Part shown: piece after piece, positions 1,058 through 12,138 of the stretch | Position numbering within the stretch: position 1 is the first letter of the stretch | Layout of the letters: each line of letters starts with the position of its first letter | NCBI RefSeq assembly: GCF_003119115.1 | Contig: NZ_CP022364.1 | Span: 582,501 to 646,500, forward strand | Source of the DNA: Azospirillum sp. TSH58 | Lineage (GTDB): Bacteria > Pseudomonadota > Alphaproteobacteria > Azospirillales > Azospirillaceae | Direction of reading: 5' to 3' | Length of the DNA stretch: 64,000 bases | Notes under the pieces: generated by a model | Databases searched by the model: none | What the model saw: the letters and a program-made list of their open reading frames with translations, nothing else | What the model was told of the DNA's origin: nothing | Position numbers and translations under genes: made by a program

Positions 1058-1123
1058 GAGGCGCTCGGGTCCTGTCCGCTATTGTCCGGTCTTGCGTCCC
1101 TATCCGGAGCCAAGGCAGACGAT

Positions 1124-2587
1124 ATGCCAGACGGAAGCGCTGTCACGCCGGCGAAAATCCAGTTCTTCGAAAGCCAGAAGAAGATCCACCCGAAGGCCGT
1201 CTCCGGACGCTACCGGCGCTGGAAGACCATCCTGACCTGGGTGCTTCTGGCGGTCTTCTTCATCGCCCCGTGGATTCGCTGGGAACGCGGCCCCGACGCG
1301 CCGGCCCAGGCGGTGCTGTTCGACCTGACGACGCCGCGCTTCTTCATCTTCTGGATCGAGATCTGGCCGCAGGAGATCTATTACCTGACCGGCGTGCTGA
1401 TCGTGGCGGCGCTGGGGCTGTTCCTGGCCACGGCGCTGGCCGGGCGCGTCTGGTGCGGCTTCACCTGCCCGCAGACGGTCTGGACCGACCTGTTCGTCTG
1501 GATCGAGCGCGCCTTCGAGGGCGACCGGGCGGAGCGCATCCGCATGGACAAGGCCCCCTGGTCCGCGAGGAAGCTCCTGCGCAAGACCGGGAAGCACGCC
1601 GGCTGGCTGGCCCTGTCCGTCATCACCGGCTTCGGCTTCGTCGCCTTCTTCACCGACGCGCCGCGGCTCGCCGTCGATCTGCTGACCTTCAACGCGACCT
1701 ACGAGGCGGCGGGCTTCTTCGCGCTGTTCGCGGGCATGACCTACGTGATGGCCGGCTGGACGCGCGAGCAGATGTGCTACTACATGTGCCCGTGGCCGCG
1801 CATCCAGACCGCGATGCTGGACGAGCACAGCCTCGTCGTCACCTACGACACGCTGCGCGGCGACACCCGCGGCCCGAAGCGCAAGTCGCAGAGCTGGGAC
1901 GAGCGCCGCTCCAAGGGCTTCGGCGACTGCATCGACTGCGGCCAGTGCGTGCAGGTCTGCCCGGTGGGCGTGGACATCCGCACCGGCGAGCAGGCGGACT
2001 GCATCAATTGCGGCCTGTGCGCCGACGCCTGCGACAGCATCATGGTGTCGCAGGACCTGCCGAAGGGCCTGATCCGCTTCGACAGCCTCGCCGCCCAGGA
2101 CACCCGCGCCCAGGGCAAGCCCTACCAGTGGCGGCTGATCCGCCCGCGCACCATCGTCTACGGCCTGCTGATGCTGGTGATCACCGGCGCCATGGCCTGG
2201 AGCTACGCGCTGCGCCCGCGGCTGGACATCGCCGTGCAGCGCGACCGCGCCCCGCTGTTCGTCACGCTCCAGGACGGCACCATCCGCAACGCATACACCT
2301 TCAAGGTCTCCAACAAGACCCGGCAGGACCGCTCCTACACGCTGGCCGCCGCCGGCATCGCCGGCGCCGAGGTGAAGGTGGTGGGCGAGAGCGACGCGGA
2401 CAGCGGCAGCGCGGTCAGCCACATCTCCGCCTCCCCGGACAGCGTGGCGACCTACCGCGTCTACGTCACGGCGCCGCGCGACTCCGTGCCGGACGCCTCC
2501 ACCCCGGTCACCTTCCAGCTGATCGACACCAACAACGGCGACCGGGACAGCTACAAGAGCGTGTTCCTGGCGCCGGGCAGCAAGTAA
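1124..2587 (+). CDS. ccoG: Cytochrome c oxidase accessory protein CcoG (FixG)
   Basis: CcoG/FixG is a membrane-bound iron-sulfur protein that acts as a cupric reductase supplying copper for assembly of cbb3-type cytochrome oxidase. The 487-residue protein has an N-terminal hydrophobic helix after a basic segment (residues about 30-50), the CGFTCPQTVWTD and YYMCPWPRIQ membrane motifs, a double 4Fe-4S ferredoxin domain (CIDCGQCVQVCPVG near residue 268 and CINCGLCADACD near 292), one further membrane helix, and a C-terminal immunoglobulin-like periplasmic domain. An upstream in-frame TTG exists at 1082, but the ATG at 1124 gives the usual N-terminus and is preferred. A perfect FNR-type box lies upstream, so micro-oxic induction is expected. 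The ccoNOQP and ccoHIS genes are not in this window. Confidence 0.95.
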   Translation: MPDGSAVTPAKIQFFESQKKIHPKAVSGRYRRWKTILTWVLLAVFFIAPWIRWERGPDAPAQAVLFDLTTPRFFIFWIEIWPQEIYYLTGVLIVAALGLFLATALAGRVWCGFTCPQTVWTDLFVWIERAFEGDRAERIRMDKAPWSARKLLRKTGKHAGWLALSVITGFGFVAFFTDAPRLAVDLLTFNATYEAAGFFALFAGMTYVMAGWTREQMCYYMCPWPRIQTAMLDEHSLVVTYDTLRGDTRGPKRKSQSWDERRSKGFGDCIDCGQCVQVCPVGVDIRTGEQADCINCGLCADACDSIMVSQDLPKGLIRFDSLAAQDTRAQGKPYQWRLIRPRTIVYGLLMLVITGAMAWSYALRPRLDIAVQRDRAPLFVTLQDGTIRNAYTFKVSNKTRQDRSYTLAAAGIAGAEVKVVGESDADSGSAVSHISASPDSVATYRVYVTAPRDSVPDASTPVTFQLIDTNNGDRDSYKSVFLAPGSK

Positions 2588-3288: not shown

Positions 3289-3855
3289 ATGCTGTTCGAT
3301 TTCGAGCCTTCGGGCATCAACGACACCTATCTGCGCCTGACCCGGCGCGGTGTTTCCTGCATCGTCGCTCCGGCCGGGGCGTGGAACGGGTTGCTTCGGG
3401 TCAACTACATCGTCGCCGGGTCGCCCGGCGGCGCCGATCCGCACATGATCTACCGATGCCTGGACATCGGGTGGGACGACGGGCGCTTCTGCTGGAAGGG
3501 CCGCGCCGCGCCGGTGATGACCACCTCGGCCATGGTCGACATCCTGCTGGAACGCGGGCTCGTCACCAACGGCGAGGCCGAGCGGCTGCTGTTCGGCATC
3601 AACAGCCCGGCGTCGGGCGGCTCGTCGGACGAGACGCTGATCGCCCGCGCCATGCTTCTGGGCTGCACCTTCTCGCCGATCTACGAGGACGTCCCGCTGA
3701 GCAGCGGCCCGCCGCGCGTGGCCGGTTTCGCCCTGCGCACCCTGGCCGATCCCGGCGCCTTCGTTCTGACCGCCCGCGACGGGCTTCCGGTGCTGGACGC
3801 GCCCGCCCGCGACGCTCTGAAACGCCTGATGGCCGAAAACGGCATCACGCTCTGA
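3289..3855 (+). CDS. Hypothetical protein
   Basis: I do not recognise this 188-residue protein. It is soluble in character, with no signal peptide or membrane helix, and has a normal mix of hydrophobic and polar residues and the strong third-position GC of its neighbours, so it is very likely a real gene. Visible features include a run NYIVAGSPGGADPHMIYRCLDIGWDDGRFCW near residues 38-68 and a GINSPASGGSSDE loop near residue 104. The ATG at 3289 follows an AAGGTGA ribosome binding site about six bases upstream. An earlier in-frame ATG at 3208 would add 27 residues but has weaker support. It stands alone between mogA and nnrS. Confidence 0.75.
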   Translation: MLFDFEPSGINDTYLRLTRRGVSCIVAPAGAWNGLLRVNYIVAGSPGGADPHMIYRCLDIGWDDGRFCWKGRAAPVMTTSAMVDILLERGLVTNGEAERLLFGINSPASGGSSDETLIARAMLLGCTFSPIYEDVPLSSGPPRVAGFALRTLADPGAFVLTARDGLPVLDAPARDALKRLMAENGITL

Positions 3856-3886: not shown

Positions 3887-3902
3887 TTTGACCGCGGTCA
3901 AA
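3887..3902 (+). promoter_or_regulatory. CRP/FNR-superfamily palindrome upstream of nnrS
   Basis: TTTGACCGCGGTCAAA is a perfect 16-bp palindrome lying about 65 bases upstream of the nnrS ATG at 3968. It has the TTGAC-N4-GTCAA shape of CRP/FNR-superfamily sites, differing from the ccoG box at the fifth position of each half site. This is what one would expect for a nitric-oxide- or nitrogen-oxide-responsive paralogue (NnrR, Dnr or HcpR type). The regulator identity is inference. Confidence 0.75.
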
Positions 3903-3967
3903 GAAGGGTGACCGCCCCCGGCGCAGTGTGACGGCATGACCGATGCCTCCAACGCGCGGGGAACGCC

Positions 3968-5176
3968 ATGACCAGTTCCGTTGCCGACCAGCCGGACCGC
4001 CCTCCGGTCCCCCTGATCTTCGCCTATGGGTTCCGGCCCTTCTTCCTGCTGTCCGGTCTCGCCGCCCCCGTGCTGCTGGCCGCCTGGATCGCCGTTCTGG
4101 CGACCGGGTCCTGGCCGGACGGCGCCGTCCCGGCGGCCTCCTGGCACGCGCACGAGATGCTGTTCGCCTTCGTGGTCGCCGCCGTGGCCGGCTTCCTGCT
4201 GACCGCGGTGCCGAGCTGGACGGGCACCAGGGCGCTGTCCGGCCTGCCGCTCGCCGGTTTGACCGGGCTGTGGCTGGCCGGGCGGGTGGCGCTGCTGCCG
4301 TTCGTGGGCGTGCCGCTGCCGGTCGCGGCCATCCTCGACCTCGCCTTCCTGCCGGCGCTCGGCGTCGCGCTGGCCGGGCCGCTGGTCGCGGCGGGCAAGA
4401 TCCGCAACACCGCCTTCCTCGTACTGCTGGGCCTGCTGACCGCCGCCAACCTGCTGTTCCACCTGGACTGGCTGGGCGTGCTGGCGGGCGGCACGGCGCT
4501 GGGCGAGACGCTGGCCATCGGCGTGGTGCTGATGATGGTGGCGGTGATCGGCGGGCGCATCGTCCCGGCCTTCACCCGCAACGCCCTGCGGCTGCGCGGG
4601 CTGGACGGCACCGTCGTCTCCCGTCCCTGGGTGGAGAAGGCGACGCTCGTCTCGACCCTGCTGATGATCCCCGCCGACCTCGCTCTGCCCGGCACCGCCG
4701 TCGCCGGCCTGCTGGCGCTCGTCGCGGCGGTCGCCCACGCCCTGCGGCTGGCGGGCTGGCAGCCGGCCAGGACGCTGGACCAGCCGATCCTGTGGGTGCT
4801 GCATCTCGGCTACGCCTGGGTGCCGGCGGCGCTGGCGCTGAAGGCCGCGCATCTGCTGGGGGCGGGCGTGGACAGCTCCGCCTGGGTCCATGCCCTGACG
4901 GCGGGAGCCTTCGCCACGATGATCGTGGCGGTGATGACGCGGGCCTCGCTCGGCCACACCGGGCGGATGCTGGTGGTGACCCGCCCGACGGTGGCCGCCT
5001 ACATCCTGCTGACCGCCGCAGCACTGCTGCGGGTGCTGGCGCCCGAGCTGCCGGGCGGCCTCTACTGGACCGCCCTGGAGGGCGCCGGTGCTGCCTGGAT
5101 CGCGGCCTTCGCCTGCTACCTGTACGTCTACGCGCCCATCCTGCTCGCCCCGCGGGCCGACGGCCGCCCGGGCTGA
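3968..5176 (+). CDS. nnrS: NnrS family haem-copper membrane protein (copy 1)
   Basis: NnrS proteins are polytopic haem- and copper-containing membrane proteins induced with denitrification genes and implicated in resistance to nitric oxide stress. The 402-residue protein has about 12 predicted membrane segments. Family signs are the N-terminal FAYGFRPFFLLSG (residues about 18-30), the WHAHEMLFAF histidine motif (near residue 60) followed by GFLLTAVPSWTG, and GGRIVPAFTRNALR (near residue 196). The palindrome 65 bases upstream is a plausible nitrogen-oxide control site. The last 49 bases overlap the 3' end of the convergent HAD phosphatase gene. A second, more divergent NnrS is encoded at 11020-12138. 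Confidence 0.93.
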   Translation: MTSSVADQPDRPPVPLIFAYGFRPFFLLSGLAAPVLLAAWIAVLATGSWPDGAVPAASWHAHEMLFAFVVAAVAGFLLTAVPSWTGTRALSGLPLAGLTGLWLAGRVALLPFVGVPLPVAAILDLAFLPALGVALAGPLVAAGKIRNTAFLVLLGLLTAANLLFHLDWLGVLAGGTALGETLAIGVVLMMVAVIGGRIVPAFTRNALRLRGLDGTVVSRPWVEKATLVSTLLMIPADLALPGTAVAGLLALVAAVAHALRLAGWQPARTLDQPILWVLHLGYAWVPAALALKAAHLLGAGVDSSAWVHALTAGAFATMIVAVMTRASLGHTGRMLVVTRPTVAAYILLTAAALLRVLAPELPGGLYWTALEGAGAAWIAAFACYLYVYAPILLAPRADGRPG

Positions 5177-11019: not shown

Positions 11020-12138
11020 TCACGCCCGAATACGCTTCGGCACGCGCAGCAGCACCCACAACACCAGCAGATGCGCTGCCATCCAGGCCAGCGCCGCCGC
11101 GGGCATCAGCAGGTCCGGCGCCGTGCTCGCCGCGGCGACGCGCAGCGCGGCGGCCAGCCCGACCAGAGCGATGGCGGCGGTGGCGGGCCGGGAGAAGTCC
11201 GGCGGCAGCGCCTCCCGCTGCAAGGTCGCGCGCACCATCATCGAGGCGGCCAGCGTGCCCAGCGCGCCCGCCCCGATCACGTGCCACCCCGCCCCGCCGG
11301 TCAGCGGGGCCAGCCGCTCGACCCCAAGGAACAGCCAGCCGAGTCCGAGCCAGCCATAGCCCAGATGCAGGCTCCACAGGTCCGGACGCTTCAGCACCGC
11401 ACCCGTCCGCCAGCGCGCCAGACGCGCCCAGGCGGTCACCCCGGCCAGCGCGGCGCCCGCCGCCCCGATCCAGGCGAGCGAGCCGGTCGTCACCCCGGCG
11501 GCCACGGTCAGGGCGGCCAGCACCGCCCCGGCGACGCCCGCCCACTCCAAGCGCGGCTGCACCCGCTCCACCAGCGCCCCGCCCTGCTTGCGCAGCTCGC
11601 CCGCCGTGGCCGACGGGATGATTCGCCCGCCCATCACCAGCATCAGGATGCCGACGAGATGCAGCGCGAACAGCGCGCCCATCCGGCCGCCGTCGCCGCC
11701 CCACCAGACCAGCGCCTCGGCCAGCGCGAAGGCGCCGATCACCGGGCCGAACAGGATGTTGTGGCCGCTCTTGGCGGCGCGCAGGAAGGGCACGCCGGCG
11801 ATCACGAACAGCGCCACCGGATAGGCCAGCGCCAGCGGCGCCGCGATCTCCGGCGGAAGGCCGCCCAGCACCGCCAGCCGTCCGGCCAGCCACGCGGCGA
11901 AGGCGACGGTCAGCGCCAGCCCGGACGGGCGCGTCAGCAGGAAGCCGCCGACCACCGCCAGCGCGTAGCCCATCAGCATCTCGTGCGCGTGCAGCGCCGG
12001 GGTCCAGCCGATGCCCAGCCAGCCGAAATAGCCGGCCACCCACAGCGGCACGCTGAGCGCCCCGTAGAGCGCGGCGGCGGGAAAGAACAGGCGGTGCCCC
12101 CAGGGACGCTGCGGCGGGGGCGGCACGAAGGCGCTCAT
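11020..12138 (-). CDS. NnrS family membrane protein (copy 2, divergent)
   Basis: This 372-residue polytopic membrane protein shares the NnrS pattern: PPPPQRPWGHRLFFPAAALYG at the start, ALHAHEMLMGYALAVVGGFLLTRPSG near residues 42-67, and MGGRIIPSATAGELRKQGG near residue 170. It differs from copy 1 in lacking the xVPSWTG end of the first histidine motif. Its ATG overlaps the stop of the upstream HxlR regulator gene by four bases (ATGA), so the two are translationally coupled. No FNR-type box is seen upstream, unlike copy 1. This suggests control by the HxlR regulator and a role linked to reactive electrophile or redox stress. The last point is inference. Confidence 0.88.
   Translation of the reverse strand: MSAFVPPPPQRPWGHRLFFPAAALYGALSVPLWVAGYFGWLGIGWTPALHAHEMLMGYALAVVGGFLLTRPSGLALTVAFAAWLAGRLAVLGGLPPEIAAPLALAYPVALFVIAGVPFLRAAKSGHNILFGPVIGAFALAEALVWWGGDGGRMGALFALHLVGILMLVMGGRIIPSATAGELRKQGGALVERVQPRLEWAGVAGAVLAALTVAAGVTTGSLAWIGAAGAALAGVTAWARLARWRTGAVLKRPDLWSLHLGYGWLGLGWLFLGVERLAPLTGGAGWHVIGAGALGTLAASMMVRATLQREALPPDFSRPATAAIALVGLAAALRVAAASTAPDLLMPAAALAWMAAHLLVLWVLLRVPKRIRA

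Follow-up and report, generated by a model that had tools for sequence, protein, structure and literature searches.

A conserved TTGAC palindrome before nnrS in Azospirillum, a predicted CRP/FNR-superfamily activator site of the FNR/Dnr kind

In the 64,000-nucleotide stretch of Azospirillum sp. TSH58 DNA analysed here (hereafter the window), a perfect palindrome stands in front of an nnrS gene, and a similar box precedes ccoG. The locus raises three questions: whether the palindrome is a regulatory site, which protein would bind it, and whether the half-site base that distinguishes the two boxes separates a nitrogen-oxide from an oxygen input, as a preliminary description of this DNA had suggested. 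A search of titles and abstracts found nothing on the regulation of Azospirillum nnrS. The features concerned are the following:

3887 to 3902, no strand: perfect 16-bp palindrome TTTGACCGCGGTCAAA, a predicted CRP/FNR-superfamily site
3888 to 3901, no strand: its core TTGACCGCGGTCAA, of the form TTGAC-N4-GTCAA
3968 to 5176, plus strand: nnrS copy 1, 402 aa (Pfam NnrS, 5.9e-110)
1044 to 1057, no strand: second box TTGATCCCGATCAA, before ccoG
1124 to 2587, plus strand: ccoG/fixG (Pfam Fer4_18 and FixG_C on the ORF 1082 to 2587, with an ATG at 1124)

The perfect symmetry claimed for the palindrome is confirmed, and the separation of 2.8 kb between the two boxes measures 2844 bp from TTGATCCCGATCAA to TTTGACCGCGGTCAAA. 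The claim that they differ at exactly one base holds for the half sites, which differ solely at the fifth base, but the spacers differ as well, by one base. The palindrome is intergenic, the upstream ORF ending at 3855, and a gap of 65 bp leads to the ATG of nnrS. Among the five best matches to this gene, the nearest named relatives are Azospirillum sequences with 94–96% identity, and one match is labelled Roseomonas genomospecies 6. A second nnrS gene lies in the window (11023 to 12138, minus strand; Pfam NnrS, 2e-61), and the 200 bp before its ATG hold no TTG-N8-CAA site.

Within the window, TTTGACCGCGGTCAAA is the sole match at up to 3 mismatches, where shuffled sequences gave a mean of 0.12 and at least one match in 12 of 100 cases. 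Its symmetry is nevertheless weak evidence alone, because the window holds two perfect 16-bp palindromes; the identical 14-mer has one further copy in the genome, at C2:259997, within the coding DNA of moeA, so a single match may be due to chance. The genome of the window (G000; 7.24 Mb in seven contigs) was surveyed as a whole, each pattern read backwards serving as the enrichment control. Pattern and control counts are 13 against 3 for TTGAC-N4-GTCAA, 35 against 6 for TTGAY-N4-RTCAA and 14 against 5 for TTGCG-N4-CGCAA. A mechanical ORF caller places eight of the 13 TTGAC-N4-GTCAA sites between ORFs and five within one. Seven of the eight precede a gene, namely nnrS copy 1 and these six:

hemA: an aminotransferase by Pfam, named by eye
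hemN: Pfam radical SAM and HemN_C
napE
nosR: identified through the annotation of A. brasilense plasmid NZ_CP032349.1; across the site from it stands a ferritin-like gene
norC
nirK: a multicopper oxidase, taken as nirK

Three of the five sites within ORFs become promoter sites given a later start or another ORF, before genes for a hemerythrin and a chemotaxis receptor and before a 92-aa ORF; the remaining two, the moeA copy and C1:493678, were not placed before a gene. Ten of the 13 can thus be assigned to the front of genes, three of them by virtue of the chosen start codon or ORF, and seven of the ten are denitrification or haem genes. The genome search that the preliminary description had proposed for the palindrome and its downstream genes gave similar sites preceding norC, nirK, nosR and napE. 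For Azospirillum, plant-associated denitrifiers, the survey amounts to a concrete list of promoters on which control by NO and oxygen can be tested.

Several details of this survey deserve mention in their own right. The eighth site between ORFs, C7:33815, lies between two convergent genes, one of them a third nnrS and the other of the cytochrome c family, and has CAGGAT at 29.5 bp; in genome G003, TTGACGGCGGTCAA stands at a distance from a nosR-type site that resembles this case. Near the nosR start of G000 are two boxes 69 bp apart (C7:45032 and C7:45101), one TTGAT/ATCAA and one TTGAC/GTCAA. The box of the chemotaxis receptor gene (C1:15512) is 75 bp before a possible start. By eye, the 92-aa ORF after the site C2:1979022 had been taken for a DUF1858 protein, to which Pfam assigned no family, and a target with TTGAT in both halves (L131) for nrdJ, which by Pfam is a pyruvate formate-lyase-like protein. 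On NZ_CP032349.1, in the region 527102–527115, genes for a Family 2A encapsulin shell and its cysteine desulfurase cargo are annotated near the nor genes.

Conservation was followed upstream of nnrS in 45 Azospirillum genomes, each represented by its best copy. Of these copies, 41 have a TTGAY-N4-RTCAA box, with TTGAC in both halves (C/C) in 25, one half of each type (T/C) in 16, and TTGAT in both (T/T) in none; 14 of the genomes belong to the close clade of the window and so are not independent. All 30 anchored nnrS loci share the eight outer bases (TTGA and TCAA), whereas mean identity is 0.62 in the flanks and 0.54 in the spacer, which is non-palindromic in many orthologous boxes. The four best copies that have no TTGAY box are those of G029, with TTGCTCCCGCGCAA beside nnrR, G039, with TTGCCCCGGCGCAA in its place, G032, with TTGTGCTGGAACAA only, and G014, with no TTG-N8-CAA site upstream. 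The NnrR-like TTGC boxes at nnrS copies in G029, G039 and G017 (second copy) look as if these genes had been rewired. To the left of the box, the sequence upstream of nnrS is highly variable between close relatives (L231, L235 and others), and G042 carries repeated TTTGACGG-like stretches there. Counted genome-wide, TTGAC sites outnumber those of the reversed pattern in 44 of the 45 genomes (6–28 against 0–6). Taken together, the excess in G000, the placement and the conservation lift TTTGACCGCGGTCAAA above chance; the palindrome is real, in all likelihood functional, and of the FNR/Dnr kind already known.

Promoter geometry points the same way. At box-anchored nnrS, ccoG and norC loci, the match to positions A2 and T6 of a -10 element has a sharp maximum 29.5 bp away from the centre of the box. 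NANNNT is found at this distance in 38 of 41 nnrS, 41 of 42 ccoG and 30 of 35 norC loci, against a background of 2.3% of window positions at the same spacing; in G000 it is found in the gene's direction at exactly 29.5 bp for eight of the ten gene-preceding TTGAC sites, nosR and the receptor gene being the exceptions. A spacing of 29.5 bp from box centre to hexamer is the layout of class II FNR-dependent promoters. The corresponding elements of the window are:

3924 to 3929, plus strand: -10-like hexamer CAGTGT of nnrS, its first base 29.5 bp from the box centre
1080 to 1085, plus strand: -10-like hexamer TATTGT of ccoG, 29.5 bp from the ccoG box centre
3936, plus strand: nnrS transcription start expected for a box centred at -41.5

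CAGTGT is a poor -10, with two of six matches to TATAAT, and since a good -35 is lacking too, nnrS would be expected to be nearly silent without an activator; the poor hexamer would fit strong activator dependence. The fixed distance also makes start sites predictable. The claim of a CRP/FNR-type site before nnrS is upheld, as one of activator layout, and the box is a putative control site of nnrS.

The proposal that the fifth base, T or C, separates oxygen from nitrogen-oxide input fared less well. The ccoG boxes of 42 genomes (G017, G043 and G039 being left out, and the copies in G014, G023 and G032 being just 59–64% identical) comprise 14 T/T, the type of the window's clade (TTGAT/ATCAA), 23 C/C and 5 mixed; the norC boxes of 35 genomes comprise 32 C/C and 3 mixed. 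Both nnrS and ccoG have a box in 39 genomes, among which the pattern of the window (nnrS C/C, ccoG T/T) is found in 14, all of one close clade, and its reverse (nnrS mixed T/C, ccoG C/C) in 15; both boxes are C/C, and so do not differ, in 7, and a C/C nnrS box goes with a mixed ccoG box in 3. The fifth base is therefore not tied to the gene, because half-site types exchange between nnrS and ccoG. TTGAC halves also occur in published sites of FnrL and Dnr (PMC2908626, PMC5398030), and the two-input code as stated is not supported. What survives is a tendency: a TTGAC half is present at least once in all nnrS and norC boxes (41 of 41 and 35 of 35), but in fewer of those of ccoG (28 of 42). A caution follows for similar cases, in that the sensor is not readable from one half-site base, which within one genus swaps between a gene for oxidase assembly and one related to NO.

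As for the protein, a search of the genome with PF13545 gave 24 matches, 14 of them clearly over the cut-off alone and one more only with its neighbours. Four of the encoded regulators were considered as binders:

C2:907451-908167: Dnr-type protein, recognition helix MQPETFSR
C2:1745567-1746256: FnrL-like protein with an N-terminal cysteine cluster, helix LTTETVSR
C7:29172-29882: NnrR-type protein, tentatively so named, with 47% identity to Sinorhizobium meliloti homologues, helix TTLHTVSR
C7:35064-35756: FtrB-like protein in the nos cluster (NCBIfam FtrB, 219.5 bits, cut-off 211)

No NCBIfam model names the Dnr-type or the NnrR-type protein over its cut-off; against the PDB, the Dnr-type protein matches Pseudomonas aeruginosa DNR (3dkw, 1.6e-30) behind the uncharacterised 3h3z/3fx3 (8.5e-49). 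A helix rule in PMC1274295 connects Glu at position 181 (CRP numbering) with the A of TTGA. This position is Glu in the Dnr-type protein and His in the NnrR-type protein, so the rule favours Dnr or FnrL and disfavours the NnrR-type protein; against a choice of Dnr by this rule, other regulators of this genome have Glu there too. An orthologue of the Dnr-type protein (at least 70% identity) is found in 43 of the 45 genomes, of FnrL (at least 90%) in 44, and of the NnrR-type protein (at least 71%) in 31, and norC is matched in 35.

Several other explanations have to be set against an FNR/Dnr-kind site. That the palindrome is a chance one, an RNA hairpin or, TTGACC looking like a -35, part of a sigma-70 promoter is improbable: the second palindrome of the window and the moeA copy speak for chance, but the half sites stay constant as the sequence around and between them drifts. 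The drifting, often non-palindromic spacer leads us to reject the hairpin, and the spacing to reject the -35, since the conserved -10-like hexamer lies 30 bp past TTGACC, too far for a -35/-10 pair. The preliminary description had also noted a resemblance to HcpR sites, and the motif does match, cyanobacterial HcpR having the consensus TTGACnnnnGTCAA and that of most delta-proteobacteria studied wyTTGACnnnnGTCAArw, but HcpR has no orthologue in the alpha-proteobacteria examined in that study (PMC1274295) and the sites found here precede denitrification and haem genes, leaving HcpR as a binder next to no credence. NnrR, which activates nnrS in other alpha-proteobacteria (PMC1274295) and has a relative encoded in this very genome, is also a very unlikely binder. 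Its consensus is TTGcg-N4-cgCAA (PMC1274295), whereas the nnrS box reads TTGAC-N4-GTCAA, and TTGCG-N4-CGCAA stands exactly so just downstream of the gene in 20 of 30 NnrR-type loci; the 13 genomes without a close NnrR-type protein retain both TTGAC sites and their enrichment. It is this absence, together with a box type of its own, that lowers NnrR in our estimate. The protein seems to have its own TTGCG box: in the annotated relative a DUF1858 gene comes next, and in Bradyrhizobium the DUF1858 gene adjoining nnrR is NnrR-dependent (PMC6710368).

A more serious contender, though still a rather unlikely one, is a plain FnrL site under oxygen control, in which the choice between T and C at the fifth base makes no difference, FnrL reaches the denitrification genes as well, and NO acts elsewhere. 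The exchange of half-site types between ccoG and nnrS boxes across clades favours it, as do the near-universal FnrL orthologue and the TTGAC-N4-GTCAA sites among those recovered for Rhodobacter sphaeroides FnrL by ChIP-chip (PMC2908626). Neutrality at this base sits badly with T/T boxes in 0 of 41 nnrS and C/C boxes in 32 of 35 norC loci when 14 of 42 ccoG boxes are T/T, and nearly every genome of the genus encodes a Dnr-type protein in addition to FnrL.

We consider it fairly probable that nnrS has a class II promoter and that a homodimeric activator of the CRP/FNR superfamily binds its palindrome, the chromosomal Dnr-type protein being the likeliest binder, possibly with FnrL. The activator dimer, on a box centred near -41.5, would switch on nnrS; the Dnr-type protein, NO-responsive by family, would bind and FnrL may share the site, which would make NO the putative signal. 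The TTGAC enrichment persists in nine of the ten genomes without a norC match, and a perfect TTGAC-N4-GTCAA lies upstream of 5 of 30 dnr orthologues. The poor -10 hexamer and the four best nnrS copies without a TTGAY box weigh against this reading. Against the choice of Dnr count the dnr gene of G000 itself, whose 300 bp of upstream sequence lack a TTG-N8-CAA site, and the genome G030 (93% complete, 1140 contigs), which has no close Dnr-type match yet carries 11 TTGAC sites and an nnrS box; so does the description of Bradyrhizobium nnrS as a direct FixK2 target. G039, where TTGAC sites are not enriched (1 against 3) and TTGAT sites number 5 against 0, has no Dnr-type match; its best FnrL is just 58% identical, so that it cannot tell Dnr from FnrL, and its use as a clean natural Dnr knock-out was ruled out.

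Tentatively, the half-site tendency could reflect a one-way code, in which Dnr would require at least one TTGAC half while FnrL would take TTGAC and TTGAT alike. Such a requirement would explain why nnrS and norC always keep a TTGAC half; NO control of ccoG would come and go with half-site drift, and nnrS would have been rewired to an NnrR-like TTGC box where it lies beside nnrR or Dnr is missing. Should this hold, small changes in a box would shift genes into or out of NO control.

Comparison with known systems places the nnrS box in familiar company. The closest counterpart is a TTAAC-N4-GTCAA site between nirS and nosR2 of Dinoroseobacter shibae, needed for expression mainly through DnrD with FnrL as co-regulator, which shares with the sites described here TTGAC/TTAAC-type halves, an N4 spacer and a place before denitrification genes; it is centred at about -40, its mutation abolished nirS-lacZ expression, and further sites lie near norC and hemA3 (PMC5398030). 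The D. shibae site differs in its one TTAAC half, in coming from a bacterium of a different order, in being described in passages that do not mention nnrS, and in having been tested experimentally, whereas the Azospirillum box is predicted from sequence. The predicted alpha-proteobacterial DNR regulon includes nnrS, a U32 peptidase family protein and a putative lipid carrier (PMC2908626), to which corresponds in G000 a mixed box before an SCP2-domain gene adjoining U32 peptidase genes; as the FNR, FixK and DNR motifs are virtually identical in that work, it claims no Dnr-specific half site. The NnrR site of nnrS in Rhodobacter and rhizobia is likewise a CRP/FNR-type box before an alpha-proteobacterial nnrS, but with TTGCG where the half here is TTGAC, and the HcpR site has the same core consensus, with hcp and norB as targets in other phyla (PMC1274295). 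In the light of the D. shibae and R. sphaeroides sites, the nnrS box is therefore best seen as an ordinary member of the FNR/Dnr kind.
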